The translations under genes were made by a program, and so were the position numbers. Under the pieces are notes generated by a model. The model did not search any database, had not been told where the DNA came from, and saw nothing but the letters and a program-made list of their open reading frames with translations. From Pseudomonadota bacterium (GTDB taxonomy: Bacteria; Desulfobacterota; Desulfobacteria; Desulfobacterales; Desulfolunaceae): 49,736 nucleotides of DNA. Positions 2,208 to 20,659 of this stretch are shown in pieces (position 1 is the first letter of the stretch; the number at the start of each line of letters is the position of its first letter). The stretch is from the NCBI GenBank assembly GCA_018818835.1, contig JAHIRD010000147.1:1-49736 (forward strand). Direction: 5' to 3'.

Positions 2208-2263
2208 GATGGACTCCCTTCATTTCTTAAGATACACGGTATCAAACTTGACTTATTAAGGTA

Positions 2264-3862
2264 TTAATCCAGATAATCATAAGCCCTGAGCGTTAAAAAA
2301 TCATCCAGGTTTTCATCCAGAATAATTTCTTCAAACAGACCCAGTGCTTTTTTGAATTTCCCCTTTTCAAAGGCATCACTTCCAATGTGTGAGCAGATCT
2401 TTTCATATTCATCGTTCAGAAGATCGAGGAACATTTTCCTGTCCACGGATCGCTGGTCATCAAGTTTGCCTTGGGGGTGGTGAAGCCACTGCCAGACCTG
2501 GGCACGGGAAATTTCCGCAGTGGCAGCATCCTCCATCAGGTTATTGATAGGGACACATCCATTCCCGGAAAGCCAGGATGCCAGATACTGTATGCCGACA
2601 CTGATGTTGTTCCGTAGACCTTTTTCAGTAATTTTTCCCAGGGGACATCTTAAAAGATCCTCCTGAGACACATTGACATCCTCCCTCTTTTTATCAACCT
2701 GGTTGGGCCCTGGCATCAACCGGTCAAAAACCTCCAAAGCCAGGGGGACCAAACCTGGATGGGCCACCCATGTCCCGTCATGGCCATCGGTGGCTTCCCT
2801 GGTTTTATCGTCCCTGACCTTCTGTAATGCTTTTTCATTGGCTTCGGGGTCATCTTTGATAGGAATCTGGGCTGCCATGCCGCCAATGGCATGGGCACCC
2901 CGTTTGTGACAGGTCTTTATGGATAACAGGGAATAGGAGTGCATGCAGTGGCTGGTCATGGTGATATCAGCCCGATCCGGGAAAATATAGGCAGGCACTT
3001 TCTTGAACTTTTTAATGAAACTAAAAATATAGTCCCAACGTCCGCAGTTCAGGCCTGCCATATGTTCCTTAAGTTCATAAATAATTTCATCCATCTGAAA
3101 GGATGCCAGGATGGTTTCAATAAGAACCGTTGCCTTGATGGTTCCCTGGGGGATAGTCATGTCATTCTGGGCCATTATAAAAACATCGTTCCAAAGCCGG
3201 GCTTCCAGATAACTTTCCATTTTCGGCAGATAAAAATAGGGGCCGGACCCGTTGTTCATAAGCTTCAGGGCATTGTGATAAAAGAAAAGACCAAAATCAA
3301 AGATACCAGCAGAAATGGCTTTCCCATCCACGGTGACATGTTTTTCCACCAAATGCCAGCCCCTGGGTCTTACGATTAGGGTGGCTATTTTTTCGTTCAA
3401 ATGGTATTTTTTTCCATCGTCACTGGTATGACTGATCGTGTGGTCTACAGCATCCCTTAGATTAATCTGGCCCTGAATCGTCCCATCCCAGGTGGGGGCA
3501 TGGGAATCTTCTAAATCAGCCATAAAGGTTCTGGCCCCGGAGTTAAGGGCGTTGATAACCATTTTGCGTTCCACCGGCCCTGTGATCTCCACCCGTCGAT
3601 CTTGAAGATCTGGTGGAACAGGAGAAATGGTCCAAGCGCTGTCCCTGATGGCCCGGGTTTCAGGCAAAAAATCAGGAAAAACCCCCCGGTCAATATGTGC
3701 CTGAACCTTTTTCCGATCTTCGAGAAGTGCAGATCGACGAAGTTCAAAGGCACGTGCAAGTCCGGCAACAAAAAAAAGAGCGTCTTTGGTCAAAATCTGT
3801 TGAAAAGCAGGCGTTATAGGAGCATGAACACGAACACCCTCATTGTCAAAAGATAGTTTCAT
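2264..3862 (-). CDS. aceB: malate synthase A AceB
   Basis: Condenses glyoxylate with acetyl-CoA to malate, the second enzyme of the glyoxylate bypass. The 532 residues fit the A isoform (about 530), not the 720-residue G isoform. Recognisable elements are the MADLEDS signature at 114-120 followed by HAPTW, the glyoxylate-binding VRPRGWH at 164-170 with Arg165, the CGRWDYIFSFIKKF stretch in the barrel, and the C-terminal RAQVWQWLHHP region. AAGGA lies about 8 nt before the ATG at 3862. It is the promoter-proximal gene of aceBA and is divergent from aceK; the shared upstream region holds a strong inverted repeat. Confidence 0.97.
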   Translation of the reverse strand: MKLSFDNEGVRVHAPITPAFQQILTKDALFFVAGLARAFELRRSALLEDRKKVQAHIDRGVFPDFLPETRAIRDSAWTISPVPPDLQDRRVEITGPVERKMVINALNSGARTFMADLEDSHAPTWDGTIQGQINLRDAVDHTISHTSDDGKKYHLNEKIATLIVRPRGWHLVEKHVTVDGKAISAGIFDFGLFFYHNALKLMNNGSGPYFYLPKMESYLEARLWNDVFIMAQNDMTIPQGTIKATVLIETILASFQMDEIIYELKEHMAGLNCGRWDYIFSFIKKFKKVPAYIFPDRADITMTSHCMHSYSLLSIKTCHKRGAHAIGGMAAQIPIKDDPEANEKALQKVRDDKTREATDGHDGTWVAHPGLVPLALEVFDRLMPGPNQVDKKREDVNVSQEDLLRCPLGKITEKGLRNNISVGIQYLASWLSGNGCVPINNLMEDAATAEISRAQVWQWLHHPQGKLDDQRSVDRKMFLDLLNDEYEKICSHIGSDAFEKGKFKKALGLFEEIILDENLDDFLTLRAYDYLD

Positions 3863-3941
3863 GGGCAGGTCCTTATGGTTTATTAATTTATTTATCCGTT
3901 ACAATGGCGAAATACAGGTATTGACGTCGAGTAAGAGAGGA

Positions 3942-3976
3942 ATTTGTAACCATGAAAAAAAATCATGATTACAAAT
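3942..3976. promoter_or_regulatory. candidate operator: 14-nt inverted repeat between aceBA and aceK
   Basis: Left arm ATTTGTAACCATGA (3942-3955) and right arm TCATGATTACAAAT (3963-3976) are inverted copies with 13 of 14 matches, separated by seven A residues. It lies 80 bp from the aceB start and 104 bp from the aceK start, where a regulator could act on both divergent genes. Size and symmetry fit a dimeric DNA-binding protein, but no regulator gene is adjacent. A hairpin in an untranslated leader is the alternative. Confidence 0.5.
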
Positions 3977-4079
3977 GGGAATATAACAATTCCCTTGGAC
4001 AATGTCAATGTGAAGACCGGCCCCGGATAAATGCTCGGCCTTAGTGGCAGGGCCATGGCAAACAAACAGGAAAACGAAC

Positions 4080-5822
4080 ATGATCCTTGATGTGGAACCC
4101 TATCAGCGAGCTTCAACGCTTATCCTTGATGCATTTGAGACATATCTGAATGAATTTCAGTCCATCACCCTAAAAGCCCGGGATCGATTTATTCAAAAAA
4201 ACTGGCAGGAAGGACGGAACGATGCTCTCAAACGACTGGACCTCTATTCCTTGACCGTCCGAAAAACCGTAGAGGATATGAGGGGGGCCATGGGCCCCCT
4301 GCTCAAAAAAGATCGCATCGGCAAGGAGATGAAACAGGCCTATGCCTCCATGGTGGCCCAGCGTGATGACAGTGAATTGGCGGAAACGTTTTTCAATTCC
4401 GTGACACGGAAAATATTTTCCATCGTGGGTATGATCCCGGACATTGAATTTACCACCCCGGATTTCAAAATACCCATGATTCAGGAACGGCAGTGTTTTA
4501 TCTGTCGGTCCCACCTTCTTCCGGAAAACCGCTTTTCCTTTCAGAACACCTTTGAAAAAATCCTTTGTGCGTACAAGGACGAGCTGGAGCTCCAGCACCT
4601 TGAACAGGATGCCAAAACCATCGCAAGGGTGGTTGAAACGCACCTTGAATCCACCTACAAAACCCAACGAATGGAGTATGTGGAAGTCATTGAATCCGTA
4701 TTCTATCGTCAGAAAGCCGCCTACATCATCGGGCGAATCCGGTCCAGCTCCCATATTGTTCCCCTGATCATCGCATTTCTGAACGACAATAAGGGTGTCC
4801 GGGCAGATGCTGTTCTATTGACCGAACGGTCTGCCAGCATCATTTTCGGATTCACCCGGTCTTATTTCCATGTCATGGTCACCAAGCCCAGTGAAATGAT
4901 CAATTTTTTAAAAAGCATCATTCCGAATAAGAGGGTATCCGAACTCTATACGGCCATTGGTTTTCACAAACACGGGAAATCTGAGCTGTTCCGGGAACTG
5001 ACCCGCAGTCTTGAGAAAACCCAAGATCGTTTTGAAATTGCCCAGGGAGAAAAAGGCATGGTCATGCTGGTGTTCACCCTTCCCTCCTTTGATGTAGTGT
5101 TTAAAATCATCAAAGACCGTTTTGAATATCCCAAAACCACCCATCGTCAGGCTGTCAGGGACAGCTATCGTCTGGTCTTCATCCACAATCGTGCCGGACG
5201 ACTTATTGATGCCCAGGCCTTTGAGTATCTTGAATTTGACCGGAACCGGTTTTCGGAAGAGGTCCTTGCGGAATTCAGGGAAACAGCCCAGGAAACGGTT
5301 TTCATCAGCGATGACCTTGTGACCATCCGGCATCTCTACACAGAACGCCGTCTTCGCCCCCTGGACCTGTACATCAAAGAAGAAGACGAAACGCATGCAA
5401 TGAAAGCCATCATTGATTATGGCCGTGCCATCAAGGAACTTGCCGCCTGCAATATTTTTACAGGAGACCTTTTTTTAAAAAATTTCGGAGTGACCCGCCA
5501 CGGACGTGTGGTTTTCTACGATTACGATGAGCTGTGCCTCCTTACAGACTGCCATTTCAGAAAAATCCCCAAATCCAGAGGGTATGACGATGAAATGGCC
5601 TCGGAGCCCTGGTATTTTGTAGGCGATAAAGATATTTTTCCCGAAGAATTCAGAACCTTCTTACGTATCCCCCCCAATCTGAAGCAGGCATTTGAAAAGG
5701 CCCATGGAGACCTGTTCGATGTGACATTCTGGAAAGAACTGCAGAACCGTATATCAGCCGGTGAGGTGATGCATATCTTTCCCTATAAACAAGGGAAACG
5801 GTTTATCAATATCGATATGTAG
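4080..5822 (+). CDS. aceK: isocitrate dehydrogenase kinase/phosphatase AceK
   Basis: Bifunctional enzyme that phosphorylates isocitrate dehydrogenase (inactivating it) and removes the phosphate, deciding whether isocitrate goes to the TCA cycle or to isocitrate lyase. I chose the ATG at 4080 because AGGAAAA ends a few bases upstream; an in-frame GTG at 4044 has no clear ribosome site. The 580-residue product matches the family length. The ATP-binding segment GEKGMVMLVFTLPS is at about 323-336, followed by VFKIIKDRF. The catalytic loop DLFLKNFG starts at 463 and the DYDE motif at 481. It is divergent from aceBA and upstream of aconitase. AceK is best known from Gamma- and Betaproteobacteria, so its presence here may reflect transfer. 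No isocitrate dehydrogenase gene lies in this window. Confidence 0.95.
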   Translation: MILDVEPYQRASTLILDAFETYLNEFQSITLKARDRFIQKNWQEGRNDALKRLDLYSLTVRKTVEDMRGAMGPLLKKDRIGKEMKQAYASMVAQRDDSELAETFFNSVTRKIFSIVGMIPDIEFTTPDFKIPMIQERQCFICRSHLLPENRFSFQNTFEKILCAYKDELELQHLEQDAKTIARVVETHLESTYKTQRMEYVEVIESVFYRQKAAYIIGRIRSSSHIVPLIIAFLNDNKGVRADAVLLTERSASIIFGFTRSYFHVMVTKPSEMINFLKSIIPNKRVSELYTAIGFHKHGKSELFRELTRSLEKTQDRFEIAQGEKGMVMLVFTLPSFDVVFKIIKDRFEYPKTTHRQAVRDSYRLVFIHNRAGRLIDAQAFEYLEFDRNRFSEEVLAEFRETAQETVFISDDLVTIRHLYTERRLRPLDLYIKEEDETHAMKAIIDYGRAIKELAACNIFTGDLFLKNFGVTRHGRVVFYDYDELCLLTDCHFRKIPKSRGYDDEMASEPWYFVGDKDIFPEEFRTFLRIPPNLKQAFEKAHGDLFDVTFWKELQNRISAGEVMHIFPYKQGKRFINIDM

Positions 5823-6016
5823 AGGTCATACTATTTGAACATGAACGGCTTGATTGACAGGGTGATGCTTTGTTGATAAATTGGATAAGACTTATATGAC
5901 CTATCTGTTCTAATTAACATCCAGCGTTTAAAAAGAATCATACATAAACTTTTAATTTAACTATTTTAAAATTCATTCTTTTCTTCGACGCCATCAATCT
6001 TAGCGGGAGATCTCCT

Positions 6017-7954
6017 ATGAAAAAAAACGTAACCCAGAAACTCATTGAAAGCCATCTTGTGGAAGGCACCATGAATCCCGGTGAAGAAATAGGCATCAAA
6101 ATTGATCAGACCCTGACCCAGGATGCCACCGGTACGGTGGTCATGCTGGAATTTGAAGCCATGAACATCCCCAGGATCAAAACTGAGCTATCTGCCCAGT
6201 ATGTAGATCACAATCTGCTCCAGATCGATTTTAAAAACGCCGACGACCATATTTTTTTAAGGGACGCCTGCAAAAAATTCGGACTCTGGTACAGCAGGCC
6301 TGGTAATGGAATCAGTCATCCGGTTCATATGGAGCGGTTTGGAGTTCCGGGCAAGATTCTTCTGGGTTCGGACAGCCATACGCCTTCCGGAGGCGCTCTG
6401 GGCATGCTGGCCATTGGAGCAGGAGGCCTGGACGTGGCCACAGCCATGGCCGGAGAGCCCTTTTATGTCAAAATGCCCAAGGTCTGGGGTGTAAAACTCA
6501 TCCATGCCCTTCCGGACTGGACCAGCGCCAAAGACATTATCCTTGAAATGCTTCGCCGCCACGGTGTGGATGGAGGTTTCGGGAAAATCATTGAATACTA
6601 CGGTCCGGGAGTGGACAGTCTAAGTCCCATGGACAGACATGTAATCACAAACATGGGAGCTGAATTAGGCGCAACAACCAGTGTGTTCCCCTCGGATGAC
6701 AAGGTCCGCCAATTCCTTAAAAGCCAAGGCCGTGAGGATTGCTGGGTGGAGATCAAGGCCGATGACGGTGCAGCCTATGACCTTTACGATGAAATCGATT
6801 TAAGTAAGATTGTACCCCTGATCGCCTGCCCCAGCAGTCCGGGTAATGTGGTTCCGGTCAGTGAGGTGGCAGGCAAAAAAATATACCAGTCCTATATTGG
6901 CTCCTCTGCCAATCCGGGTTTACGGGACTTTGCCATTGTGGCCCTGATCACCGAAGGGAAAAAGGTCCATGACCATGTATCCCTGGACATCAACCCCTCC
7001 ACCCGTCAGGTCATCGAAAATCTGATCCATCTGGGCCTCATGGAAAAACTGATCCAGACCGGTGCCCGGGTTCACCAGGCCGGATGCAATGGATGTATCG
7101 GCATGGGCCAGGCACCGGCAACCGGTAAAATCAGCCTGCGCACCGTACCCCGAAATTTTCCGGGACGGTCAGGAACCATAGGAGACCAGGTGTATCTGTG
7201 CAGCCCTGAAACAGCAGCTGTGTCGGCCTTGACCGGAGTTATCACCGATCCCAGGACCATGGACATGCCGTACCCGAGGTTCACAGAGCCCCAGAAACTA
7301 CAACTCAACACGGCCATGCTGATTCCACCTGATCCGAATGGCGGGAGTATCGACATTGAAAAAGGCCCCAATATCAAACCCCTGCCCGAATCGGGCCCCC
7401 TCCCTGACACGATCCAGGCACCGGTTCTTTTGAAAATGGGGGATAATATTTCCACCGACGAAATCATGCCTGCCGGAGCCCATATTCTTTCCTTTCGAAG
7501 CAATATCCCGGAAATCAGTAAATTTTCATTTTCTCGAGTGGACAAAGCGTTTTATGATAGGGCACTGGCCTTAAAGGACAAGGGTTTTATCGTTGTGGGC
7601 GGAGACAATTACGGCCAGGGATCAAGCCGGGAGCATGCGGCCCTGGGGCCACGCTACCTGGGCCTCCAGGCTGCCATTGCCAAGAGTTTCGCACGGATAC
7701 ACTGGCAAAACCTGGTGAATTTCGGAATTCTGCCTTTGACCTTTACCGATCCATCGGACTGGGAAAAAATTCAGAAGGATGATGTGCTATGCCTGTCAGA
7801 TTTAAGAGAAAAAATCAACATTTCCTCAGAGCTTGCTCTGGAAAACAAGACCCGGAATCTGACCATCACGGTCAGGCACAGCTTGAGTCCCAGGCAGGTG
7901 GACATGATTCTTGCCGGAGGAAAAATAAACTATATTAAAGGAAAGCAGGGTTGA
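6017..7954 (+). CDS. aconitate hydratase (short, about 645-residue bacterial type)
   Basis: Interconverts citrate and isocitrate with a [4Fe-4S] cluster. Likely cluster ligands are Cys271 (IACPSSP) and Cys357/Cys360 (GCNGCIG). The substrate-binding loop LLGSDSHTPSGG is near residue 115, and the swivel domain carries the active-site SSREHAAL at 536-543. At 645 residues it is shorter than AcnA or AcnB (750-890) and matches the compact aconitase subfamily common in Deltaproteobacteria. A homoaconitase or isopropylmalate isomerase fusion is less likely given the aceBA-aceK neighbours. It follows aceK by 194 bp, with room for its own promoter; GGGAGA precedes the ATG. Confidence 0.9.
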   Translation: MKKNVTQKLIESHLVEGTMNPGEEIGIKIDQTLTQDATGTVVMLEFEAMNIPRIKTELSAQYVDHNLLQIDFKNADDHIFLRDACKKFGLWYSRPGNGISHPVHMERFGVPGKILLGSDSHTPSGGALGMLAIGAGGLDVATAMAGEPFYVKMPKVWGVKLIHALPDWTSAKDIILEMLRRHGVDGGFGKIIEYYGPGVDSLSPMDRHVITNMGAELGATTSVFPSDDKVRQFLKSQGREDCWVEIKADDGAAYDLYDEIDLSKIVPLIACPSSPGNVVPVSEVAGKKIYQSYIGSSANPGLRDFAIVALITEGKKVHDHVSLDINPSTRQVIENLIHLGLMEKLIQTGARVHQAGCNGCIGMGQAPATGKISLRTVPRNFPGRSGTIGDQVYLCSPETAAVSALTGVITDPRTMDMPYPRFTEPQKLQLNTAMLIPPDPNGGSIDIEKGPNIKPLPESGPLPDTIQAPVLLKMGDNISTDEIMPAGAHILSFRSNIPEISKFSFSRVDKAFYDRALALKDKGFIVVGGDNYGQGSSREHAALGPRYLGLQAAIAKSFARIHWQNLVNFGILPLTFTDPSDWEKIQKDDVLCLSDLREKINISSELALENKTRNLTITVRHSLSPRQVDMILAGGKINYIKGKQG

Positions 7955-8568: not shown

Positions 8569-11500
8569 TCAGATGTCCTGATATTCCGGGACATGCGAGA
8601 GATAACCCACCCTATTCAGGTAGTCCAGATAGGTATGGAACATCTGCTCATCAAGGGCAATGGGTTCAAAATCACTTCCCTTCAAAAATTCCATGAGAGT
8701 GGCGCTGGAATAGGTCTGCCGGTTCAAAGTCTGCATCTCAAAAAACGTCCGGCCCTGAGCTCCTTCCATACGGTCAAAAACAAGAGGTAAAAAGGGCAGA
8801 AGTTCACTGTCCTGACCCGCTTCTTTTTTTATCATCTCCATCCAGGTGCCCACCGGAACCATGGGCATATCATAACCGTATGATCTCACATAGCTATTCA
8901 CCTTTTCAACAGTTGTGGCCCTGGGATTTACAATATTAAATTGTTTTCCCACAGAGGCAGGGTTACTGGCAATCTCAATAATCGCTCGACTCACCTGATC
9001 CACGGCCACACCATCCATCTCAATATCCAATTGGGGCATGGCACCAATGAGGACGCAGGCCCGAATCATGCGGCAGAAGAAATCATCGGTATTCAGTTCA
9101 CCGGTGATGCTGTTTCCGTAAATGGGTCCGGGCCTGAAAATGGTCACAGGCATTCCTTTGTCCCGGTATTGGGTAACCAGTTTTTCCGCCACCCATTTAC
9201 TCTGGGCATACCCGTAATAGAGCTGATCCGCATCAGGCAACACATGGTCATCACCCACCTTCCCTTGGGTAAAGGGGATCTTTGATTCAAACACACCAAT
9301 GGTTGAAATAAAATACAAGGGTTTGATCCGTTCACAGGCGGTGAATTTGAGCACTTCAAGTGTCCCTGTGACATTGGCTTTTCTCAGCAGATCATAGGGA
9401 TAGGAGAAGTTGACCATGGCCCCGTTATGAATGACCGCATCCACAAGGCATGCCACGGAATGATAAGTTTCATCCAAAAGCCCAAATCGCTCATGTGCAA
9501 GATCTCCGGAAAGGGGAATGATGCGGTCGGTGTATTCGTCTTTCCACACACTGAATTTTTCAAGGTTGGACTTCAATCGGTTTAATCCATCCTCTCGATT
9601 TTTCGACCGGACAAGGCAGAACACAACACTTTGAGTATACTCCATCAAGTCCTTTAGAAGATAGGCCCCCAGATACCCGGTTGCGCCGGTGAGAAAGATG
9701 TTCATAAAGTCACCGTCAGGCTGGATGACCTCCAGCCTGTTTTGGATAAAACCTGTGTCAAGAATGGCATCCTCCTGCATCTTCAGAGCGGCTTCATTCG
9801 TATAAATCTCTTCCCCCCTCATGATCCGTTCCACGGTTTGAGCCAGTTTTTGAACGGTCAAATTTTCAAAAAGTTTCTGGACGGTCAATTCAATACCAAG
9901 GCGCTCGTTGATATTCACGAGAAGGTTCATGGCCTTAAGGGAGTCTCCGCCACAGTCGACAAAATCATCGGTGATCCCCAAATTTGAAATCCTAAGCACC
10001 TCTATCCACATGGGCAGAAGGAGTTTTTCCATCTCACGCACCGGGGGAATCCTGTTCTGGGGATTTTCATCATGAACCCAGTCCGGCAGTTGTTTGGCAT
10101 CAATTTTACCATTTTTATTCAGGGGCATGCGATCTATCCAGACAAAATGGACAGGAACCATCCATGACGGGAGTCGCCCCTTAAGCGTTTCCCTCAGAGA
10201 CCCTTCATCGGGATGTTTCCCCGATGGTTCCGGAACCAGCCATGATTCCAGGATTTTTCCGGAGGGTGCATCATCCCTGACCAGGACCACGGCTTCCTTT
10301 ACACCGGGAATATCTGTCAATGCCCGTTCGATTTCCTTAAGCTCAATCCGGTATCCCCTGATTTTCACTTGGCAGTCAAGACGTTCTATGTATTCCAATG
10401 CCCCATCCGGCAGCATGCGCACAAGATCACCGGTTCGGTAAATCATTTCCGGCAACGAGACAAAGGGATTTGCAATATAGCGTTCCCATGTCAGATCCGG
10501 CTGCAGATGGTAACCCTGGGTCACACCATGCCCTCCGATATAAAGCTCCCCCGGAACCCCTTTGGGTACGGAATTCATATCCGGGTCAAGAATATAAAGG
10601 CGGGTATTGGCCAAGGGATAACCGATATTGACGCCGGTACCGGTCTTAATATGGGCGGCCGTGGACCAAACCGTTGTTTCAGTGGGGCCGTATAAATTCA
10701 GCAATTGTTTCCCTTTACCGGAAAGAATGTCAGCCAGGTCCTGGGGCAGATCTTCACCCCCTGTAATCAGGGTCATGTCCGGATTGCCCCGCCATCCGGC
10801 ATACACCAAAAGTCGCCATGAGGATGGTGTGGCCTGCATCAGGGAAACCGGATTTTTTTCAAGAAAATCCCTGAGCAGATAGCCGTCCCTTGCAAGGGTC
10901 TGTGATATGATATGGATCTTTCCCCCGGTGAGCAGGGGGAGATAAAGTTCAGGTTTGACCATGTCAAAACTCAACCGAGTGATGCCCAGCATGGTATCTT
11001 CGGGTGTAAAATCGATCAACTGATTCATGCCATAGACCAAATTTACAAGGCCCTGATGCATGGCCCTCACGCCCTTGGGTTTGCCTGTGCTGCCTGAGGT
11101 ATAGATAATGTATGCCAGATCCTTTGAATCAGCGGCCCGGTCCATGGTTTCCAGGCAACGCGCATAATTTTTCTTTTTCCCCATGGCCCTGATTCTTTCG
11201 TCCTCATCTTCAAGAACAATCAGTTCCCCTTCATTGGGAGGAATGTGATGTTTAAGGCTCCGGCTACAGAGAATCAACCTCGCTCCTGTATCCGATATCA
11301 TATGAGCAAGACGTTCCCCAGGGTAATCCGGGTCAAGGGGTAGATAGGCTGCGCCGCTTTTCAAAATCCCCATGATGGACACCATCATGGTTATGGACCG
11401 CTCCACACAAAGACCCACCACATGCCCTTTGCCCACCCCTCTGTCGTGGAGGTAGACCGAAAGCATATCTGAGCGGCTGTTGAGTTCACCATAGCTTAGC

Positions 11501-14500
11501 CGGTCCTCTTCACATAAAACAGCCAAGGCCCGGGGCTGTTTTTTTGCTTGTTCTGCAAAAAGCTGATGAACACATTTCCCCAAGGGGTAATCCATCTCTG
11601 TCCGGTTCATCCCGACGATCAATTCTTCGCATTCCTTGCTATCCATCATGGTCAGGCGGGATATGGCTTTATCCCAACCCTCTTTCATACCAAAGACCAA
11701 ATTCTCCAGATGCCTTGCCATGTTCTGGATGTAATTTGAATCATACAAAGACCGATCATAAACAATTCTCCCGGAAAGACCCTGTGGAGCATTGAAAAAT
11801 TTAAAACTCAAGGGGGATCCGGATAGACGCATGTCTTTTCCGGCCATGTCTCCCCAGACAACCTGAATGGGATACGATCCCAAAGGGTCTATTCCCATGA
11901 GTTTTTCAAGAATATCCCGGGGCATATCCCGGTGTGCTCTGGCCTGGTCCAGCAAATGAGATACCTGATGAGCATGGCCACCCAGAGCTGTTTTAGACGA
12001 GCACAGGCTCCTGATAAAGCAAGGCCCCCGGAGTGTCCGGTCATTGGTGTTCCAGAGAGACAGAAGCAGATCCTCCTGACGGCTGTATCGTGAAAGAAGA
12101 ACAAACACCTGGGCCAGAACCAATGTCATGGCATCCAGATCCTTGTCACGCGCTGTCTCTTCCATCACCGTATGGGTTGCGTTATCAAAGATAAAGGCAC
12201 ATTCACCCAAAGCTTTATCGTAATGATCACGAAATCGACCCTGAAATGGGACCGATGAATGAACCGGCGCATCCTTGAGTTGATTTTCCCAGTAAGTCCT
12301 ATGACAATCAAACATTTCAGCAAAAACACCCCGGGGGATAGAGTCACTCTGTGTGAGATAGTCCATAACCGATTCAAGGACGTCTGCAGCACTTGGAATA
12401 TGTTGGATCAACTCTTTGTCAGAAAGAAACAATGCCGTCATGGCCTGGGTATTATCCACTTTCCATGATGCGTAGGCTTCGAATGCATTTGTGTCATAGC
12501 GGCTGATAAAGGGATACAAGGGATACAAAACATTCCGGGGATCTTTTTGGCAGAGTTTTTTCCAGTCTTCAAAGGGGATTCTGTGGATCTTGTGACCCCT
12601 TTTCCGAATCAAGGAAGCGAAGTCAGAGGTTGAAAAGGGCCGCCGGTTGAGCAAGTGATAGATTTTACCACTGGGCTTATCCCCATGTGCTATACTGAGC
12701 ATCATGCGGCAGAGGTAATCCACTGGAATGATATCAAAATTTGTTTCCTCCAAAGGCATACAGCCCATCTGGATGCAGCCCTTGATCAAGCGGGCTATGA
12801 AATCACTCTGTTTCATGACCCCTGAACCGGGTTTCCCCGCCACATAATCAAAGCGATAAATAGAAACGGGGACCCCCAATTTTGCAGCCTTCAAACAAAG
12901 CTGTTCAGCCACCCATTTACTCTGGCCATACCCTGCACGAATTCCCGAGGGATCCCTTACTTCTTTTTCAAACCATTCATTCTGGCCCTCGACCAAGGGA
13001 AGCACTGCCAGGGATGATATAAAATGAAGGGTTTTGATGGATTTGTGTGCTGCCATGCGGATGACTTCCCGTGTCCCGTTCACATTGGTATTTTTCAAGG
13101 CCGCATAAGGTTTTAACCAATCCACAGTGGCGCCACAATGCCATATGGTATCAATGGTATTGGAAAGTTTATTGAACTCTTTTATTCCAAGGCCCAGTCT
13201 CAATTCTCCCAAATCACCTGTGATGATATGAATCCGCTCATGGGGAAGATTTCTGCCTGACCCGAAATTTAAGGCTGCCAGCCTGACTCGTTCACGTCCC
13301 TTGGTTTCATTTTCTGCCCTGACCAGGCAATAGATCTGGGCATCGGTTTTTTCAAGTAATTCAACCAGAAGATAAGAACCCAGATAGCCGGTGCTTCCTG
13401 TGAGGAAAATCGCTTTTCCTTGTGTCCTTACCATGGGCGTTGACCGGTTAAACAAAAATTCATCCAGCTCCGTATCCCCAAGCAGATACGGCTCTTGATA
13501 TTCTTCAACCATCCCGCCCGCGACAAAACGGGCAAGACTTAAAATGGTGGTATAATCCTGAATTGATGACGGTGGCATCTCTATTCCGGCATACTGTTCA
13601 AGGCTGTGCACCAGACTGATCACGGCCATGGAATCCATACCGTAATCATTGAACTGGGTGTTCGGGTCAACCTGTCTTTCACTGACATTCACCATCTGTG
13701 ACACTTCGTGAGAGAGAAACAACACCATGTCCTCCAAGGAACATCCTTTCGGTTCCCGGTATGTCAGAGGATTCTGGCTTACCCTATCCGTCTCTGATTC
13801 GGTGATGTGTTCATGGGATTCCATGGCAAAATATCTCTGTTTCTCAAACACATAACCCGGCAAAGGAATTTTTTTAAACCCCTGTCCCTTTCGAAGTCCA
13901 TCCCAGTCAAGATCATCTCCCATGGCCCATCGCCTGGCCGCATCCTTGGGGTTCTGTTCAAAACAACGTTGCCTGGGCTCGTTCTTTTTACAAAGACCAA
14001 ACCATGCATCAGAACCTGACTCACCGGTTTGACGGAATGTTTTCATAGTCTTAATCAGGCCGTCAGCATCCCTTACAACCATGGCAAGCCTTGCATCTAA
14101 ATGGTCACGTCCCTCCCATAGGGTACAGGCGGCATCATAGAAATGATTTTTAACCATAAGATAATTTTTTGTTTCCCCAATCCAGACAAGGAAGCGGTCA
14201 ACAAGGGCGTCAAGTCCTTCCCGGGTCCGGGATGAAAACACAAACAAGTAATCTTCGTCATGACTCTCCGAAAAATGATTCTCATGGGATTCAAGGATCA
14301 TATGGGCATAGGTCCCGCCAAAGCCAAAGGAGCTGATCCCTGCCCGGCAGGGCATCTCCTTTCCGTCCCGGTCCCGGTCCCTGTTCCCGTGCCAGGCCAT
14401 GGTTTCGCCCGGAACATAAAAGGGACTTCCCTCAAGCTGGATTAGGGGGTTGAGGGTATCCACATGGCGATTGGGAGGAATAACTTTTCGTTTCAGGGCT

Positions 14501-17500
14501 TCCACCACTTTGATCACACCGGCGATTCCGGCGGCTGATTCAAGATGGCCGATGATGCTCTTGACCGAGCCCAAGGCACAGCTTGTTTTATCGAAATCAC
14601 CGTCCCCGGTTTTGTACATCTCACGAAAGGCCGTCAGAAGGCCATTGACTTCAATGGGGTCCCCCAGAATCGTACCGGTCCCGTGGGTTTCCATATAAGA
14701 AATGGTTTCGGGGCTGACCTTTGCATCAACACAGGTTTTAATGATTAATTGTGCCTGTGATAAGGCATTGGGGGCAGTCAAGGATTCACTCATCCCCCCA
14801 TGGCTCACGGACGTTCCACGGATCACCGCATGGATAAAATCACCATCCCGCCGTGCATGGTCCAACCGTTTCAATAGTACAACTCCGCATCCTTCTCCTC
14901 GCACATAGCCATCGGCCATACTGTCAAAGGTGCTGCATTGACCTCGGGAACTCAAAAATCCGGACCGGCCCAGGGACGTAAAGGTATCCGGAGAGATCAG
15001 AATATTGACTCCCCCTGCAAGGGCCATGGAACAATCTCCTTGACGAATGGCTGAAACTGCCCGGTGAATGGCTACCAGAGAACTGGAACAGGCTGTATCG
15101 ATAATTTCACTGGGACCGTGGACATTCAAAAGAAAAGACACCCGATTGGCAATCATGGTATGGGCCATACCTGTGGCGGTATATGCTTCGGGTTGTATCC
15201 CGGATTCCCTAAGCACATCGCTGTAATCAAAGGATGAAACACCTGCAAATACACCCAGATCCTTCCCACCGAGTGTTCCCGGCGCATAACCGGCATGGGC
15301 CAGGCAATGCCATACGGTTTCGAGAAAAATTCTCTGCTGGGGGTCCATCAGCTTCGCCTCTTTAGGGGATATGCTGAAATAATGAGCGTCAAAGGCATCA
15401 ATATCCTCGATAAACCCCCCTCTGCGGGAAAAGCCTCCTTTGGCCCGATTTAAAAATGGTGCTCTGGCATCCTTGGGAAAATCACTCAGACAATCATATG
15501 AGTTTTCGATGTTATTCCAGAAAGCATCTATATCTGTGGCTCCAGGAAAACGGCAGGCCATGCCAACGATGGCCATGTCCCCTGTTGCCATGCCTGTTGT
15601 TTTGAGAGCCTGGGCGCGAATCCCCAAATCCGGCTTGGACTTGCCTGATACATAATCAAACAAGCGATTGATGGTGGGATAATCATAGAACAGGGTCGGA
15701 GTACATGGCTGGCTTGTAATTGTCGAAAGTTTCTCTGTCAATTCTACGGCCTCGGATGATGTCAAGCCATAATGTCCAAAGGGCAGATCCGGATCAATAT
15801 CATGGGGTTCCAGACCCAGATACTGAGAAAAAATTAATAAAAAGGTCTCCCTTGTATTATCCAGGGGCATGGGGCCCACGGGTTCTACAAACTCACGGTC
15901 ATCGTCAGCACAATACCGCTCAATCACACTCAAGGAATCATTTTCAAAGCTCTTTCTGGAGTCATTCCGTCTAATTTTCCCACTGGTAGTCACAGGCAGA
16001 CTTTTAGGAGACACTAGAAGAACATAGTCCACATTCAGCTCATAGTCTTTTTTAACCTGCTTAACAATGGTTTTAAGGACTGTTTGGCTTTGCTCCAAGG
16101 TCCCCACATATTCGGCCAGCACGCAAAGTTTCTCATTTGAAAGAAAGGCGACTACACGCCCTGGCCGGATGCTTTTTAGGGCTTTTTCCACCGAAAGTTC
16201 GATATCCTGGGGATAATAATTCCGCCCCCGTATGATGATCAGATCTTTGATCCGTCCGGCAATATAAAGTTCGCCATGACTCAAAAAGCCCAGATCACCC
16301 GTTCTTAAAAATGGGCCTTTTCCTGAGGCTGTATAGGCCTGAAAGGTTTCCCGTGTAAGCTCATCATTGTTCCAGTAACCCCGGGCAGCACTTTTGCCCT
16401 GGAGCCATATTTCTCCCACCTGGCCCTCGGGAAGGATTTCAAAATTCGTGTGATCCACAATACAAAGGGACTGCCCCGGGGGGCAGACCCCGTTACTCAC
16501 AAGACCAAGGGTTTTGTCAGAGGTGGTCTTGGAAATCTCAATTATCCCTTTTTTGAACGCAGCTTTCATCACGTGGATTTCTTTGACTCGGTCTGTTTTG
16601 GCTGTACAGCAAGCCAGAAGTGTATTTTCAGCCAGGCCATAACAGGGTAGGAACGCATTTCGGGAAAATCCATGGGATTTATAACATTTCGCAAATCGCC
16701 GGATCGTATCGCCACGAACGGGCTCAGCCCCTGTGAATGCAAGATCCCAGGAACTTAAATCAATATTTTCGCAACGTTTTTCATCGTATCGTCGCACACA
16801 AAGGTCAAAAGCGAAATTAGGTCCACCGCTGATGGTTGCCTTATATCGGGATATCATTTCAAGCCAACACAAGGGATCAGCCATAAAGTCAAGGGGTGAG
16901 ATAAGAACCATCCGATATCCGGTATAACAGGGCTGAAGAACATTTCCTATCAGCCCCATATCATGATAAACAGGCAGCCAGCCCACACCGATGGTATTTG
17001 TGTCCTGGGAAAAACCGGATTGGATCAGGCCTTCATTCTCAAGGATGTTTGCATGGGTAACAATGACACCTTTGGGATGATTTGTGGATCCCGAGGTGTA
17101 TTGCAAAAAGGCGATATCATCGCCTGAAATACGCCCTTGGACCCAGGCCTCACCCCATTCGCTTGTAAACTCTTCATTGAAAACCAGATCAAGCGCTCCA
17201 TAATTCCAGCCCAGGCTTCGTCCGGCCTCGGCAAGGTCAAAAGACGTGATGATGGCGATTGGACCGGCATCGTGTATAACATGATCAATTTTATTGATAA
17301 AGGCCTGGGTAAACGGTGGATACAAAGGGATTGGAATTATCCCTGCATAAAGACAACCAAAAAAACTTGTGATAAAATTCTCACCCGGCTTCAATGCCAG
17401 GATAACACGTTCACCTCGGTCATATCGTACCTGGAGATATCCCGCAGCGTTTCTCGCTTGTTGATGCAATTTCCCATAGGTAACATCAATGCCGATCCCA

Positions 17501-17592
17501 TCAGAAAAAAACGTGTAAATAAGGGTGTCCTTTTTTATATCAGCACACCTCACCAGTTGATCTACCATTGAATTCACGATTTCGCTTTTCAT
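8569..17592 (-). CDS. hybrid PKS/NRPS megasynthase: FAAL-ACP-KS-ACP-reductase-partial C-A-PCP-reductase
   Basis: Assembles a lipid-amino-acid product on carrier domains. I start at the ATG at 17592 because GGAAGGA lies six bases upstream; an in-frame ATG at 17631 lacks such a site. Of 3007 residues: fatty acyl-AMP ligase about 1-570 (YTSGSTNHPKG from 165); ACP with Ser612 (GLTSS); ketosynthase about 673-1100 with Cys835 (DTACSSS), His970 (HGTGT) and His1016 (GHLES); a post-KS linker ending LPGYVFEKQRY but no acyltransferase; ACP with Ser1321 (GMDSM); thioester reductase with GSTGYLG from 1399 and Tyr1555 (YGQSK); the C-terminal half of a condensation domain from about 1767 (YWENQL) without HHxxxDG; adenylation domain about 2015-2500 (YTSGSTGKPKG from 2164, LYGPTETT, NKNGKID); PCP with Ser2551 (GGDSL); terminal reductase with GATGYLG from 2636 and Tyr2795. 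No acyltransferase, phosphopantetheinyl transferase or exporter is adjacent. The final reductase predicts release as aldehyde or alcohol. Confidence 0.93.
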   Translation of the reverse strand: MKSEIVNSMVDQLVRCADIKKDTLIYTFFSDGIGIDVTYGKLHQQARNAAGYLQVRYDRGERVILALKPGENFITSFFGCLYAGIIPIPLYPPFTQAFINKIDHVIHDAGPIAIITSFDLAEAGRSLGWNYGALDLVFNEEFTSEWGEAWVQGRISGDDIAFLQYTSGSTNHPKGVIVTHANILENEGLIQSGFSQDTNTIGVGWLPVYHDMGLIGNVLQPCYTGYRMVLISPLDFMADPLCWLEMISRYKATISGGPNFAFDLCVRRYDEKRCENIDLSSWDLAFTGAEPVRGDTIRRFAKCYKSHGFSRNAFLPCYGLAENTLLACCTAKTDRVKEIHVMKAAFKKGIIEISKTTSDKTLGLVSNGVCPPGQSLCIVDHTNFEILPEGQVGEIWLQGKSAARGYWNNDELTRETFQAYTASGKGPFLRTGDLGFLSHGELYIAGRIKDLIIIRGRNYYPQDIELSVEKALKSIRPGRVVAFLSNEKLCVLAEYVGTLEQSQTVLKTIVKQVKKDYELNVDYVLLVSPKSLPVTTSGKIRRNDSRKSFENDSLSVIERYCADDDREFVEPVGPMPLDNTRETFLLIFSQYLGLEPHDIDPDLPFGHYGLTSSEAVELTEKLSTITSQPCTPTLFYDYPTINRLFDYVSGKSKPDLGIRAQALKTTGMATGDMAIVGMACRFPGATDIDAFWNNIENSYDCLSDFPKDARAPFLNRAKGGFSRRGGFIEDIDAFDAHYFSISPKEAKLMDPQQRIFLETVWHCLAHAGYAPGTLGGKDLGVFAGVSSFDYSDVLRESGIQPEAYTATGMAHTMIANRVSFLLNVHGPSEIIDTACSSSLVAIHRAVSAIRQGDCSMALAGGVNILISPDTFTSLGRSGFLSSRGQCSTFDSMADGYVRGEGCGVVLLKRLDHARRDGDFIHAVIRGTSVSHGGMSESLTAPNALSQAQLIIKTCVDAKVSPETISYMETHGTGTILGDPIEVNGLLTAFREMYKTGDGDFDKTSCALGSVKSIIGHLESAAGIAGVIKVVEALKRKVIPPNRHVDTLNPLIQLEGSPFYVPGETMAWHGNRDRDRDGKEMPCRAGISSFGFGGTYAHMILESHENHFSESHDEDYLFVFSSRTREGLDALVDRFLVWIGETKNYLMVKNHFYDAACTLWEGRDHLDARLAMVVRDADGLIKTMKTFRQTGESGSDAWFGLCKKNEPRQRCFEQNPKDAARRWAMGDDLDWDGLRKGQGFKKIPLPGYVFEKQRYFAMESHEHITESETDRVSQNPLTYREPKGCSLEDMVLFLSHEVSQMVNVSERQVDPNTQFNDYGMDSMAVISLVHSLEQYAGIEMPPSSIQDYTTILSLARFVAGGMVEEYQEPYLLGDTELDEFLFNRSTPMVRTQGKAIFLTGSTGYLGSYLLVELLEKTDAQIYCLVRAENETKGRERVRLAALNFGSGRNLPHERIHIITGDLGELRLGLGIKEFNKLSNTIDTIWHCGATVDWLKPYAALKNTNVNGTREVIRMAAHKSIKTLHFISSLAVLPLVEGQNEWFEKEVRDPSGIRAGYGQSKWVAEQLCLKAAKLGVPVSIYRFDYVAGKPGSGVMKQSDFIARLIKGCIQMGCMPLEETNFDIIPVDYLCRMMLSIAHGDKPSGKIYHLLNRRPFSTSDFASLIRKRGHKIHRIPFEDWKKLCQKDPRNVLYPLYPFISRYDTNAFEAYASWKVDNTQAMTALFLSDKELIQHIPSAADVLESVMDYLTQSDSIPRGVFAEMFDCHRTYWENQLKDAPVHSSVPFQGRFRDHYDKALGECAFIFDNATHTVMEETARDKDLDAMTLVLAQVFVLLSRYSRQEDLLLSLWNTNDRTLRGPCFIRSLCSSKTALGGHAHQVSHLLDQARAHRDMPRDILEKLMGIDPLGSYPIQVVWGDMAGKDMRLSGSPLSFKFFNAPQGLSGRIVYDRSLYDSNYIQNMARHLENLVFGMKEGWDKAISRLTMMDSKECEELIVGMNRTEMDYPLGKCVHQLFAEQAKKQPRALAVLCEEDRLSYGELNSRSDMLSVYLHDRGVGKGHVVGLCVERSITMMVSIMGILKSGAAYLPLDPDYPGERLAHMISDTGARLILCSRSLKHHIPPNEGELIVLEDEDERIRAMGKKKNYARCLETMDRAADSKDLAYIIYTSGSTGKPKGVRAMHQGLVNLVYGMNQLIDFTPEDTMLGITRLSFDMVKPELYLPLLTGGKIHIISQTLARDGYLLRDFLEKNPVSLMQATPSSWRLLVYAGWRGNPDMTLITGGEDLPQDLADILSGKGKQLLNLYGPTETTVWSTAAHIKTGTGVNIGYPLANTRLYILDPDMNSVPKGVPGELYIGGHGVTQGYHLQPDLTWERYIANPFVSLPEMIYRTGDLVRMLPDGALEYIERLDCQVKIRGYRIELKEIERALTDIPGVKEAVVLVRDDAPSGKILESWLVPEPSGKHPDEGSLRETLKGRLPSWMVPVHFVWIDRMPLNKNGKIDAKQLPDWVHDENPQNRIPPVREMEKLLLPMWIEVLRISNLGITDDFVDCGGDSLKAMNLLVNINERLGIELTVQKLFENLTVQKLAQTVERIMRGEEIYTNEAALKMQEDAILDTGFIQNRLEVIQPDGDFMNIFLTGATGYLGAYLLKDLMEYTQSVVFCLVRSKNREDGLNRLKSNLEKFSVWKDEYTDRIIPLSGDLAHERFGLLDETYHSVACLVDAVIHNGAMVNFSYPYDLLRKANVTGTLEVLKFTACERIKPLYFISTIGVFESKIPFTQGKVGDDHVLPDADQLYYGYAQSKWVAEKLVTQYRDKGMPVTIFRPGPIYGNSITGELNTDDFFCRMIRACVLIGAMPQLDIEMDGVAVDQVSRAIIEIASNPASVGKQFNIVNPRATTVEKVNSYVRSYGYDMPMVPVGTWMEMIKKEAGQDSELLPFLPLVFDRMEGAQGRTFFEMQTLNRQTYSSATLMEFLKGSDFEPIALDEQMFHTYLDYLNRVGYLSHVPEYQDI

Positions 17593-18559
17593 AGGATGTC
17601 CTTCCATAGTGATTAGAGTTGATATGATCAAATTGCGATATTACGCATCAAATCAATGTGACAATTAACAGAATCCTGTATTCAGACATCGCGTTTATAA
17701 AAGAAGAAAATGGATATCCTTCTAAAACACCTGTTTTAAAAGACAAGTTATTCACCTGGAACATCAACACTTTCTGATTTAATTTGAAGGGATCACTACA
17801 AAAATAACGGCTTGAGACAACCTGCATCTTTGATAAAAAACAGCTAAACTCTATGATGACAATTATCACATCTAAAATGAAAAAAGCTTATGATAGAGAT
17901 ATTTCAAAGGTGATGCGAAATTAATCGCCGGTTCTATAAAAACATATATGGATGTTTAAACCGTTATGAAATGCTTATTGAAGAAATTAAATATCCTGGA
18001 ATCGGATTAAGCGTCTAACAATCTGTAAGATTTTAGCGCAATAGCCCCTAAGGGCTGAAATGATATACTAGAAGCTATCTCAAATGAGTCTTTTGGCACT
18101 CTGCGACAGGGCATTCTTTCTAATCTTCAGCAACGACCCGTATGACAGCTGTTTGAAGCACCTACGGCCTTGATTTTGAACCATATTTTTTTGAGATGTC
18201 TTCTATAAAAAAGTGTATTACTACAAACGTACTATATATTAATCTTGAAATAGATTAAAAAGCAATAAAAAAATTAATTCTCTCATAAAAAATAGTTATG
18301 ATTGACTACAATTCAAATCAATGATATTTTGAGTAAATATCATCATTGAAGAATTATTTTTATCGATTTATCTAAATATAATGGTCTTTAGTCTATTCTT
18401 ATTCAGAACATGCGATAGCAATGGTAGAATCAGGAAGAAGTAAACCACAACATCCATACGCAATGTCCATTAACAGGCGAGGTATCTTCGGGAAAAAGTG
18501 ATCCTGAGAATGTCTGTGATTCATAAAAAAGAGGGATGAGATTGGATAAGGACTGTTTT
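17593..18559. other. 967-bp AT-rich gene-free region upstream of the megasynthase
   Basis: No convincing coding sequence is present on either strand; a 73-codon minus-strand frame at 17648-17869 has no recognisable features and no convincing start. The region must hold the megasynthase promoter, but I cannot place -35/-10 boxes with confidence. It contains the inverted-repeat element at 18070-18204. Its length and AT content differ from the tighter gaps elsewhere. Confidence 0.6.
18070..18204. repeat. short inverted-repeat element, possible MITE or insertion-sequence remnant (135 bp)
   Basis: AGAAGCTATCTCAAA (18070-18084) and TTTGAGATGTCTTCT (18190-18204) are inverted copies with 13 of 15 matches. 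The 105 bp between them are moderately GC-rich, unlike the AT-rich surroundings, and encode nothing. TATA occurs just outside both ends, but this could be chance in AT-rich DNA. It resembles the paired ends of a deleted insertion sequence. Confidence 0.5.
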
Positions 18560-20164
18560 TCAAAGGCCCTTGGCTTTTTTTACATTAAGAGCTTTATCAA
18601 TTCCCCGGGCGCTTTCCATGGGACTATCTGTGAAATCTGCATTTTTGATATCAGCCCCTGTAAAATCGGTCCGGGTCATGGTGCAATTTTTAAATACAGC
18701 GTCTTTTAACAGGGCTCTCGTGAACAACGCATCTGTGAAATTCACGTGAATAAACGTCACCCCTTTCATATCCGCCAATTCCAGATTGGCTCCTTTCATC
18801 GATGTGTCTGAAATAATGCAATTTTTCATATTGACTTTTGCAAGTGCCGTTCCGGTAAAATCGCACGATATGATTTTACTGTCGGAAAAATTACAATCCG
18901 AAAGGTCAGCGCCATTCAATCTTATCTTCACAAACCTGATGTTTTTCATCTGCAGCCCTGGGAGATATGCCCCCTTCAGGTCAATCATTTCAAGAGACGC
19001 ATCATTTAAAACAATATTCGTTAACACAGCATTATCCAATCCCGTGGATTGAAGGAGGCTCCCTGTAAAATCGCTTCCCGAAAGATCCGAATTATTCATG
19101 GACGCATTTGATAAATCAGCTTTTTTAAAACTCGCTTTTGCAAGAGAACAGTTATCAAGCATGGCATCGACGAGAATGGCATCGTCAAATACCGACCCTG
19201 TAAGATCGGACCCGCTCAAATCAGAACCCCCCATATTTGACGCGCTGAAATTGGTTTCCTGGATATGTGAATTTTTTATTTCTGCATACCGAAGATCGGA
19301 TCCGCGAATGGAAGTATCCATAAACACCATATCGTTCATTCGGGCATTGCTCATATTGGAAAATGAAAAATCACAATTAACCGCTGTCATGCCACGCATA
19401 AATCCACCACTCAAATCCGATGATAAAAGTTCCACAAGTTTCAAATAGGCATAACTCAGGTTGACTTCATTGAACCGGGTGGCCATGTCCTTTTTGAATA
19501 TCACACGAACCTTCTCCAGCTTAGCGCCACTCAGATTGGCTCGTGTAAAGTCCGAGGCCAGAATGGTTGTATTGTAGATGTGCGCCCCATGGAGATCGGA
19601 ATTTCTAAAATTCACATTTTCAAAATCGGAATAAATCACAGCAAAACTTACATCAGCCCCTGAAAGATTAACACCTGTCATCCGTGTTCCCTTGAGAAGG
19701 GCGCCCTTCATTTTGACCGAATTAAGATCAGAAAGAACAATATCCCCTCCGCTAAATACGATGAAATTCATTTCCGAATGGGCCATGTCCATTTTTTCCA
19801 GATGACTTTCAAAGATTTTTGACCCATTCAGGTTTGATTTTTTCATGGAACCGTTCAAAAAATCGCATCCCATAATCAGCAAATCCTGCATCTCCACATG
19901 ATCAAGATCCACCTTCTTCATGGCCACATTATCAAATGTCATCTGACTGATAACCTGGCCATCCATCTCAAGGGCTGAAAGGGTTACATTCTCAATTATT
20001 TTACCCTTGGCAAAAAGGGATTTCACATCAACGTTGTTCAGCTCCAGTCGTTCCGCTTTCGAAGAAAAACAAGGATTCAGCAACGAGTCCATCACAAACA
20101 GACTGCCCATCATTGAAATAAATATCCAACATCTTATGGTCTTAACAAAAAAAGATTTCATCAT
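18560..20164 (-). CDS. exported or membrane-anchored pentapeptide-repeat protein
   Basis: The 534-residue protein starts with a hydrophobic segment (IFISMMGSLFVM, about 14-25) after a short basic start, which fits a signal peptide or anchor; no good lipobox follows. From about residue 40 nearly to the end it is built of A(D/N)LXX-type pentapeptides, for example NLSGAD, DLSGSDLTGS, ADLSNASMNNSDLSGSD and ADMKGV. This repeat folds as a right-handed quadrilateral beta-helix; about 480 residues would give some 24 turns. Cytoplasmic members (Qnr, MfpA) mimic DNA and protect gyrase, but an export signal argues for a surface or periplasmic scaffold. It is 66 bp downstream of the LysM-like gene and probably ends the kinase-LysM-pentapeptide operon. 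Confidence 0.85.
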   Translation of the reverse strand: MMKSFFVKTIRCWIFISMMGSLFVMDSLLNPCFSSKAERLELNNVDVKSLFAKGKIIENVTLSALEMDGQVISQMTFDNVAMKKVDLDHVEMQDLLIMGCDFLNGSMKKSNLNGSKIFESHLEKMDMAHSEMNFIVFSGGDIVLSDLNSVKMKGALLKGTRMTGVNLSGADVSFAVIYSDFENVNFRNSDLHGAHIYNTTILASDFTRANLSGAKLEKVRVIFKKDMATRFNEVNLSYAYLKLVELLSSDLSGGFMRGMTAVNCDFSFSNMSNARMNDMVFMDTSIRGSDLRYAEIKNSHIQETNFSASNMGGSDLSGSDLTGSVFDDAILVDAMLDNCSLAKASFKKADLSNASMNNSDLSGSDFTGSLLQSTGLDNAVLTNIVLNDASLEMIDLKGAYLPGLQMKNIRFVKIRLNGADLSDCNFSDSKIISCDFTGTALAKVNMKNCIISDTSMKGANLELADMKGVTFIHVNFTDALFTRALLKDAVFKNCTMTRTDFTGADIKNADFTDSPMESARGIDKALNVKKAKGL

Positions 20165-20230: not shown

Positions 20231-20659
20231 TCACCGCGGGCCAAAAAGTTCAAATTTATCAGGCGACTCGATTTTTTTTTTCTCCGGCATGATCTTTACG
20301 GGCTCAGCGGGTATTTTCTTTATCGGTTTTTCCAGAGAGTTTTCTACAAATTCACGGGTCATGGGCTCACGGGTCTTGAGCAATTTCCGGGGAATGTAGA
20401 TAAGAGTCCCGACCACAAGCCTCTCAGGGTTAACCGTGGGATTGGCCTTGATCACATGCTCGGCATTCTCTTCTTTCCCGGTATACCACCTTGAGATAAG
20501 AGGCATGGATTCATTCGGCCATTCCACTGTATGCACAAAGGCATGCCGTGTCTGCTTGACCGGTTTCCACCGTTTTTCGCTCCCAAAAAAAGAACAGGAG
20601 CTACTTGTAAACAAAACAAGTAAAATAAGGATTCGTGTGTATATCAGCTCGTTTTTCAT
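20231..20659 (-). CDS. LysM-like lipoprotein
   Basis: A 142-residue exported lipoprotein. The N-terminus has a hydrophobic stretch (RILILLVLFTSSSC) ending in a lipobox-like SSSC, so Cys22 should be lipidated. Residues about 43-92 (HTVEWPNESMPLISRWY then NPERLVVGTLIYIP) match a LysM domain: an initial V/H-T-V strand, a helix around the Ile-Ser, and the terminal G-x-x-I-x-I-P strand. LysM binds peptidoglycan. The tail is rich in Pro, Lys and Glu. It sits 87 bp downstream of the Ser/Thr kinase and 66 bp upstream of the pentapeptide-repeat gene, all in the same direction. Confidence 0.75.
   Translation of the reverse strand: MKNELIYTRILILLVLFTSSSCSFFGSEKRWKPVKQTRHAFVHTVEWPNESMPLISRWYTGKEENAEHVIKANPTVNPERLVVGTLIYIPRKLLKTREPMTREFVENSLEKPIKKIPAEPVKIMPEKKKIESPDKFELFGPR

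Follow-up and report, generated by a model that had tools for sequence, protein, structure and literature searches.

A one-protein FAAL, polyketide synthase and NRPS hybrid with two thioester reductases and half a condensation domain, possibly joining lipid and amino acid by aldehyde chemistry

As a rule, neighbouring units in a biosynthetic assembly line are joined via an amide by a condensation domain. How, then, might a fatty chain and an amino acid be joined by a protein in which only one lobe of this domain is left, behind a thioester reductase? The question is raised by a single gene in the window (the whole stretch of 49,736 nucleotides analysed here, which is one contig) of a bacterium that is probably a sulfate reducer, as inferred from a relative. 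An initial annotation, made from the letters alone, had read its product as FAAL-ACP-KS-ACP-TR-(partial C)-A-PCP-TR, 3007 residues long and with its motifs intact, a reading that Pfam, NCBIfam and motif analysis confirm (Table 1). We call the protein the megasynthase, its internal reductase TR1 and its terminal one TR2.

Table 1. Positions in the window of the megasynthase gene, its domains and three neighbouring genes
Feature	Position	Strand	Basis
Megasynthase gene, 3,007 aa, FAAL-ACP-KS-ACP-TR1-halfC-A-PCP-TR2	8569..17592	minus	Open reading frame, Pfam, motifs
FAAL domain, residues 1-557	15922..17592	minus	Pfam AMP-binding and PF23024; PDB matches
ACP1, residues 585-655, carrier Ser612 in GLTS	15628..15840	minus	Pfam, motif
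Ketosynthase (KS) and following linker, residues 668-1256, no AT behind	13825..15591	minus	Pfam, PDB matches, motifs
ACP2, residues 1285-1360, carrier Ser1321 in GMDS	13513..13740	minus	Pfam, motif
Internal thioester reductase TR1, residues 1385-1745	12358..13440	minus	Pfam, NCBIfam, PDB matches, motifs, tree
Half condensation domain (half-C), C-lobe only, residues 1755-1995	11608..12330	minus	Pfam, profile alignment, motif absence, control comparison
Amino-acid adenylation (A) domain, residues 2005-2505	10078..11580	minus	Pfam, NCBIfam, motifs; pocket DMPQIGLVW by eye
PCP, residues 2515-2592, carrier Ser2551 in GGDS	9817..10050	minus	Pfam, motif
Terminal thioester reductase TR2, residues 2630-2998	8599..9705	minus	Pfam, NCBIfam, PDB matches, motifs, tree
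Pentapeptide-repeat protein, 534 aa, hydrophobic N-terminal stretch	18560..20164	minus	Kept in G001, 37% identity
142-aa protein, lipoprotein-like start (SSCSFF), no Pfam match	20231..20659	minus	Kept in G001, 42%
Ser/Thr protein kinase with TPR repeats, 596 aa	20747..22537	minus	Kept in G001, 56%

An intact and rare family

The megasynthase frame runs on the minus strand from an ATG at 17592, shortly 5' of which lies GGAAGGA, to a stop that ends at 8569; a TTG at 17631 is also found upstream in the same frame. Pfam detects two AMP-binding, three PP-binding, one KS and two NAD_binding_4 (TR) stretches. The NCBIfam thioester reductase model TIGR01746 likewise matches two stretches, with 599.8 bits summed for a cut-off of 213.35, while the NCBIfam FAAL models match the FAAL domain with scores under their protein-wide cut-offs, and TIGR03443 and NF041592 stay under cut-off in the megasynthase. 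Scans of the window for Rfam families (gathering thresholds) and for tRNAs gave no match.

Four further genomes from the window's taxonomic order encode full-length relatives; we name them G001 (53% identical to the window protein), G025, G007 and G271 (38% each). The frames measure 3,007 (window), 3,012 (G001), 3,019 (G025, where the contig end cuts the frame), 2,990 (G007) and 3,022 residues (G271); all five are open, share an identical domain order and come from genomes that span three families. Carrier serines, KS residues and TR motifs are intact in the window protein and in each of the four relatives: DTACSSS, HGTGT and GH, hence the Cys-His-His triad, in every KS, and GxxGxxG together with YxxxK in both reductases of every member. 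Given the E-values and four relatives with the same domain order, the architecture is not a chance arrangement of matches. Since five assemblies agree on it, an assembly artefact is rejected as well. The initial annotation had proposed a search for the same domain order across genomes and had considered a relic, disrupted in related strains; the search returned these four relatives, whose copies are open and motif-complete.

The family is thinly spread. In overlapping samples, which include the window's own genome wherever it was sampled, full-length matches occur in 4 of 58 relatives, and members in 4 of 242 genomes of the order sample (a fifth match, in G132, belongs to a 1,027-residue frame), in 4 of 340 genomes of the class sample and in 1 of 345 of the phylum sample. 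At the level of families, the megasynthase is present in three of the eight genomes of the window's family, in one of 30 in that of G271, and in the one genome sampled from that of G025. Among the 80 loci listed by a pattern scan of named genomes there was no additional member, and a plasmid search with ACP2-TR1 returned 166 records, all below 60% identity, the five listed being at 30-34%. Such a patchy distribution fits loss or transfer. The megasynthase is thus a real, intact, rare and conserved family.

Half a condensation domain behind a well-conserved reductase

In the window, the Pfam Condensation match covers model positions 192-274 of 456 only, and in the five members the spacing from TR1 to the A domain is about 260-286 residues. 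A profile of the five half-Cs, aligned with 17 complete C domains, covers columns 199-479 of 493 (E 1.9e-32). The lobe that carries HHxxxDG precedes this region, and the motif is found in none of the five megasynthase proteins. The 'partial C' of the initial annotation was therefore correct, and the profile alignment refines it to the C-lobe alone. This lobe has itself changed: its G.F.NT motif, which 15 of the 16 control C domains possess, is absent from all five members.

The controls were 16 complete C-A modules from the collected loci, forming 120 pairs, of which we used the eight with an A-domain identity of 38-43%. In these, the C-lobes are 35.6 +/- 8.4% identical, versus 14-24% in eight family pairs with an A-domain identity of 35-43%; four of the family pairs lie at or below 38%, under which there is no control pair, and the pairs are not independent. 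The two closer family pairs fall inside the control range (34% for the window and G001, 27% for G025 and G271). A phmmer search with the half-C alone matched no solved structure, and the structures predicted from a two-row alignment (window and L026) were too poor for use, with a mean pLDDT of 37.3 for the half-C and 39.8 for TR1 plus half-C.

Because the N-lobe is lost, C-lobe identity is low and G.F.NT is gone, amide formation by the half-C is unlikely, though the scaffold is retained. The half-C is nevertheless kept in all five members, whereas a pure relic need not be. It might be, then, that a C domain reduced to one lobe still works, or that a condensation enzyme acting in trans makes the amide. 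The product would in that case be a beta-ketoacyl-amino aldehyde or alcohol, and TR1 a side exit or an idle domain. Besides the retention of the half-C, a gene pair of the cyanobacterium Stenomitos frigidus (L096) speaks for such a scheme, with FAAL-ACP-KS-AT-ACP followed by a complete C-A-PCP-TR; the loss of both condensation motifs from every member speaks against it, and so does TR1 itself, as the following comparison indicates.

Between members, identity is 43-67% for TR1, 45-56% for KS, 36-57% for FAAL, 35-57% for A, 37-52% for TR2, 29-59% for PCP and 16-34% for the half-C, the least conserved. TR1 is the most conserved of these seven domains in 7 of the 10 pairs and KS in the other three, the margin of TR1 over KS, the next domain, being mostly a few points. 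With complete motifs and this degree of conservation, TR1 is not expected to be idle; judged by its sequence, the internal reductase is no remnant. We consequently consider the scheme with an amide bond and a dispensable TR1 rather unlikely.

The origin of the two reductases was addressed with a tree of 42 domains, retained from 92 after near-copies were dropped, in which the bootstrap is not fully settled. The five TR1s form one group (99/100) and the five TR2s another (100/99), and therefore both reductases were present in the common ancestor. Within one protein, TR1 and TR2 are 33-35% identical, less than TR1s are among themselves, and on this ground we rejected a recent duplication of one reductase from the other. 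An old duplication, preceding the family ancestor, is compatible with the tree test: uniting all ten domains in a single clade lowers the fit by 0.91 log units (p-AU 0.459). The best two solved-structure matches are the same for TR1 and TR2, namely MxaA (PDB 4u7w) and a type I PKS (8v1x). At what we take to be the catalytic Ser/Thr position of the reductase, TR2 and MxaA show ST, whereas SSLAVLP is found in each of the five TR1s.

A possible route and its product

We propose, with somewhat less than even confidence, that the megasynthase is a one-protein hybrid of FAAL, AT-less PKS and NRPS parts in which lipid and amino acid are linked by aldehyde chemistry and not by an amide. FAAL domains load fatty acids, and the first step would be the loading of such an acid onto ACP1. 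The KS would then condense the chain with a malonyl unit on ACP2, to give a beta-ketoacyl-ACP2. No acyltransferase (PF00698) match was found in the megasynthase or anywhere on its contig, so the malonyl unit would have to come from an AT in trans; PF00698 is present in the G041, G020 and Stenomitos proteins compared. In addition to ATs within larger frames, all five genomes contain one of 319-330 aa, which is presumably the size of FabD, and such an enzyme encoded elsewhere in the genome could serve the megasynthase. A phosphopantetheinyl transferase match also exists in each of the five. Another contig of the window's own genome, G000 (contig C210; loci L119 and L120), bears a large polyketide synthase cluster, whose KS matches lie in open frames as long as 5,843 codons, together with an AT match and, near the contig end, a phosphopantetheinyl transferase match.

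TR1, whose motifs are intact, would next turn the beta-ketoacyl thioester into a beta-keto aldehyde, although over-reduction to the alcohol could also occur. Meanwhile the A domain would place a small amino acid on the PCP, a tentative assignment based on pockets read by eye from alignments, at what we take to be the GrsA positions. Those of the window (Table 1), G001 (DMPQIGCVW) and G007 (DIAQIGVIW) resemble DILQLGLIW, which we take to be the glycine code; that of G007 also resembles the second A domain of LgrA, presumably specific for glycine. A glycine-like substrate may thus be loaded in three of the five members. The pockets of G025 (DAIQLGGLC) and G271 (about DALILGGVC) differ and likely accept another amino acid, and a single glycine-derived pyrrole can therefore not be the product of all five.

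The PCP-bound amine would capture this aldehyde to give an enaminone, at or close to the half-C scaffold, and with the catalytic lobe lost no amide would form. TR2 would finally reduce the aminoacyl thioester to a second aldehyde, which may close on the enaminone carbon to form a 3-acylpyrrole, or else be reduced to an alcohol. For the window, G001 and G007, with their glycine-like A domains, a 3-acylpyrrole lipid is a possible final product. The stronger version of this proposal, in which an internal TR has replaced the catalytic C lobe, with aldehyde-amine joining and ring closure by the second TR leading to fatty 3-acylpyrroles or similar N-heterocyclic lipids, is possible, but we hold it doubtful. 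The initial annotation had envisaged a malonyl-extended fatty acid combined with one amino acid and ending in a reduced terminus. The domains agree with the start, extension, amino acid module and release so described; 'combined' in its usual sense finds no counterpart in a C domain that lacks both its HHxxxDG lobe and G.F.NT in all members.

Need the two halves cooperate at all? Each is a complete loading-carrier-reductase unit, and smaller proteins of either kind exist (FAAL-ACP-TR in L027; A-PCP-TR in L110, a 1,027-residue frame). The PKS half might accordingly release a beta-keto aldehyde or alcohol, with an amino aldehyde or alcohol coming from the NRPS half, the two halves being fused for other reasons. 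Yet the fusion is maintained in five genomes of three families, and a free amino aldehyde, being reactive, is improbable as an end product. For these reasons we find two independent products unlikely.

The neighbourhood offers hints on where the product might go. The initial annotation's view of an orphan single gene was half right: it does not hold in G001, where the kinase-TPR, lipoprotein-like, pentapeptide and megasynthase genes follow one another in the same order as in the window (Table 1). HRD and DFG motifs are present in the kinase. In G271 there is just a distant relative of the kinase (30%), downstream of the megasynthase; the neighbours in G007 include a histidine kinase and a sulfatase; and in G025 the upstream side lies past the contig end. 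Of the four members open to this comparison, two thus have the cassette. No other shared biosynthetic gene was seen in the neighbourhoods compared. Upstream of the megasynthase, positions 17593-18559 form an AT-rich gap (967 bases, 32% G+C) without a clear gene; it has no gene in common with the 608-base gap of G001, the best DNA match between them being 41 bases (E 5e-4). Promoter-like sites are at chance level (18 versus 16.8 expected) and terminator-like sites number 18 versus 12.3 expected (sd 4.9); neither were used. On the other side of the gene, an isocitrate lyase, malate synthase A, AceK (isocitrate dehydrogenase kinase/phosphatase) and aconitase lie adjacent at 873-7951, a glyoxylate-bypass set that is odd company for a presumed strict anaerobe.

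The product would be a lipid and, to guess from these neighbours, one that may be destined for the cell envelope. A further alternative builds on the same hint: the TR1 aldehyde would go to another amine or lipid acceptor, and A-PCP-TR2 would supply an amino-alcohol head group for a membrane amino-lipid. The adjoining lipoprotein-like and pentapeptide proteins, with their hydrophobic starts, point to the envelope in two members, but they are not kept in G271 or G007, and we regard such an amino-lipid as very improbable.

Comparison with known systems

The N-terminal FAAL with its adjoining ACP is what characterises FAAL-initiated PKS-NRPS lipopeptide synthetases; the complete condensation domain expected of these is lacking, only the C-lobe without HHxxxDG being present in the five members. 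Of the FAAL-initiated PKS-NRPS hybrids that end in a TR, the Stenomitos pair shares the FAAL-ACP-KS start and the A-PCP-TR end, and differs in having an AT, a complete C domain and one TR in two genes, where the megasynthase has no AT, half a C domain and two TRs in one gene. In a protein of G020 (L122:2952-9665), which has FAAL, ACP, KS, AT and aminotransferase, this start module is fused in another way. FAAL-ACP-TR proteins occur in L027 and L079 (cyanobacteria), with the same neighbours in L042 and L094, and a FAAL-TR protein in L056; by their domains, these look like converters of fatty acids to aldehydes or alcohols. Carboxylic acid and aminoadipate reductases are stand-alone A-PCP-TR proteins, an arrangement to which only the C-terminal third of the megasynthase corresponds.

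The KS with its linker (about residues 672-1255) matches PDB 4na1 (PksJ, whose ketosynthase we take to be AT-less) and 4qyr ('AT-less polyketide synthase'), and the module lacks an AT as in trans-AT polyketide synthases. In contrast to these, it is a single module, fused to FAAL and NRPS parts, and no dedicated trans-AT gene lies on the contig. The MxaA and 8v1x reductases are, we assume, terminal domains, and TR1 differs from them in being internal.

For the chemistry itself, precedents are partial. In SfmC, which acts in saframycin synthesis, the amine that is joined sits on a PCP. According to the available portion of the account (PMC6274189), the SfmC reductase domain acts three times and its C domain performs Pictet-Spengler reactions, so that, as in our proposal, an aldehyde made by a reductase is joined to an amine. 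SfmC has one reductase, however, as opposed to two in the megasynthase, and a complete Pictet-Spengler C domain where the megasynthase has a half-C without HHxxxDG. Fungal SwnK (swainsonine) combines A, KS and thioester reductase in one protein, as does the megasynthase, and iminium cyclisation has been proposed for it; it has another domain set, with an AT, and no FAAL is named in the part of the text at hand (PMC5473758). SwnK was rejected as a precedent for two TRs, its reductases being, in that same part, one beta-ketoacyl reductase and one thioester reductase (PMC5473758). In tambjamine synthesis, as far as the excerpt describes it, TamA and TamH release an ACP-loaded fatty acid as an aldehyde that is then aminated (PMC9594044). 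The fatty acid on an ACP, the aldehyde release and the joining of an amine recall our scheme; the amination is by a transaminase, the reductase resembles acyl-ACP reductases with a cysteine, and two proteins are involved (PMC9594044, same excerpt). On the synthetic side, diacylpyrroles have been obtained by zirconium catalysis from N-acyl alpha-aminoaldehydes and 1,3-dicarbonyls, in the part of the report consulted (PMC10337043). By analogy, this reaction and SfmC may be regarded as partial precedents for the proposed mechanism.

Searches of the open-access literature for combinations of FAAL, TR and KS, for two or internal TRs, for partial C domains and for pyrrole chemistry found no such architecture, and hence no known family with an assigned product, the outcome that the initial annotation had said would overturn its view. 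The main text of a 2025 review of FAALs (PMC11837247) contains no word starting with 'reductase' and no 'trans-AT'.

We place the megasynthase among the FAAL-PKS-NRPS-TR hybrids, with a coupling logic that is possibly new. If the proposal is true, the rule that neighbouring units are joined via an amide would be broken by a family without the catalytic half of its condensation domain and with a well-conserved reductase in front of it. The prediction of products from such genes would then change, and lipid aldehydes or N-heterocyclic lipids could become accessible by a compact route that needs a single gene.
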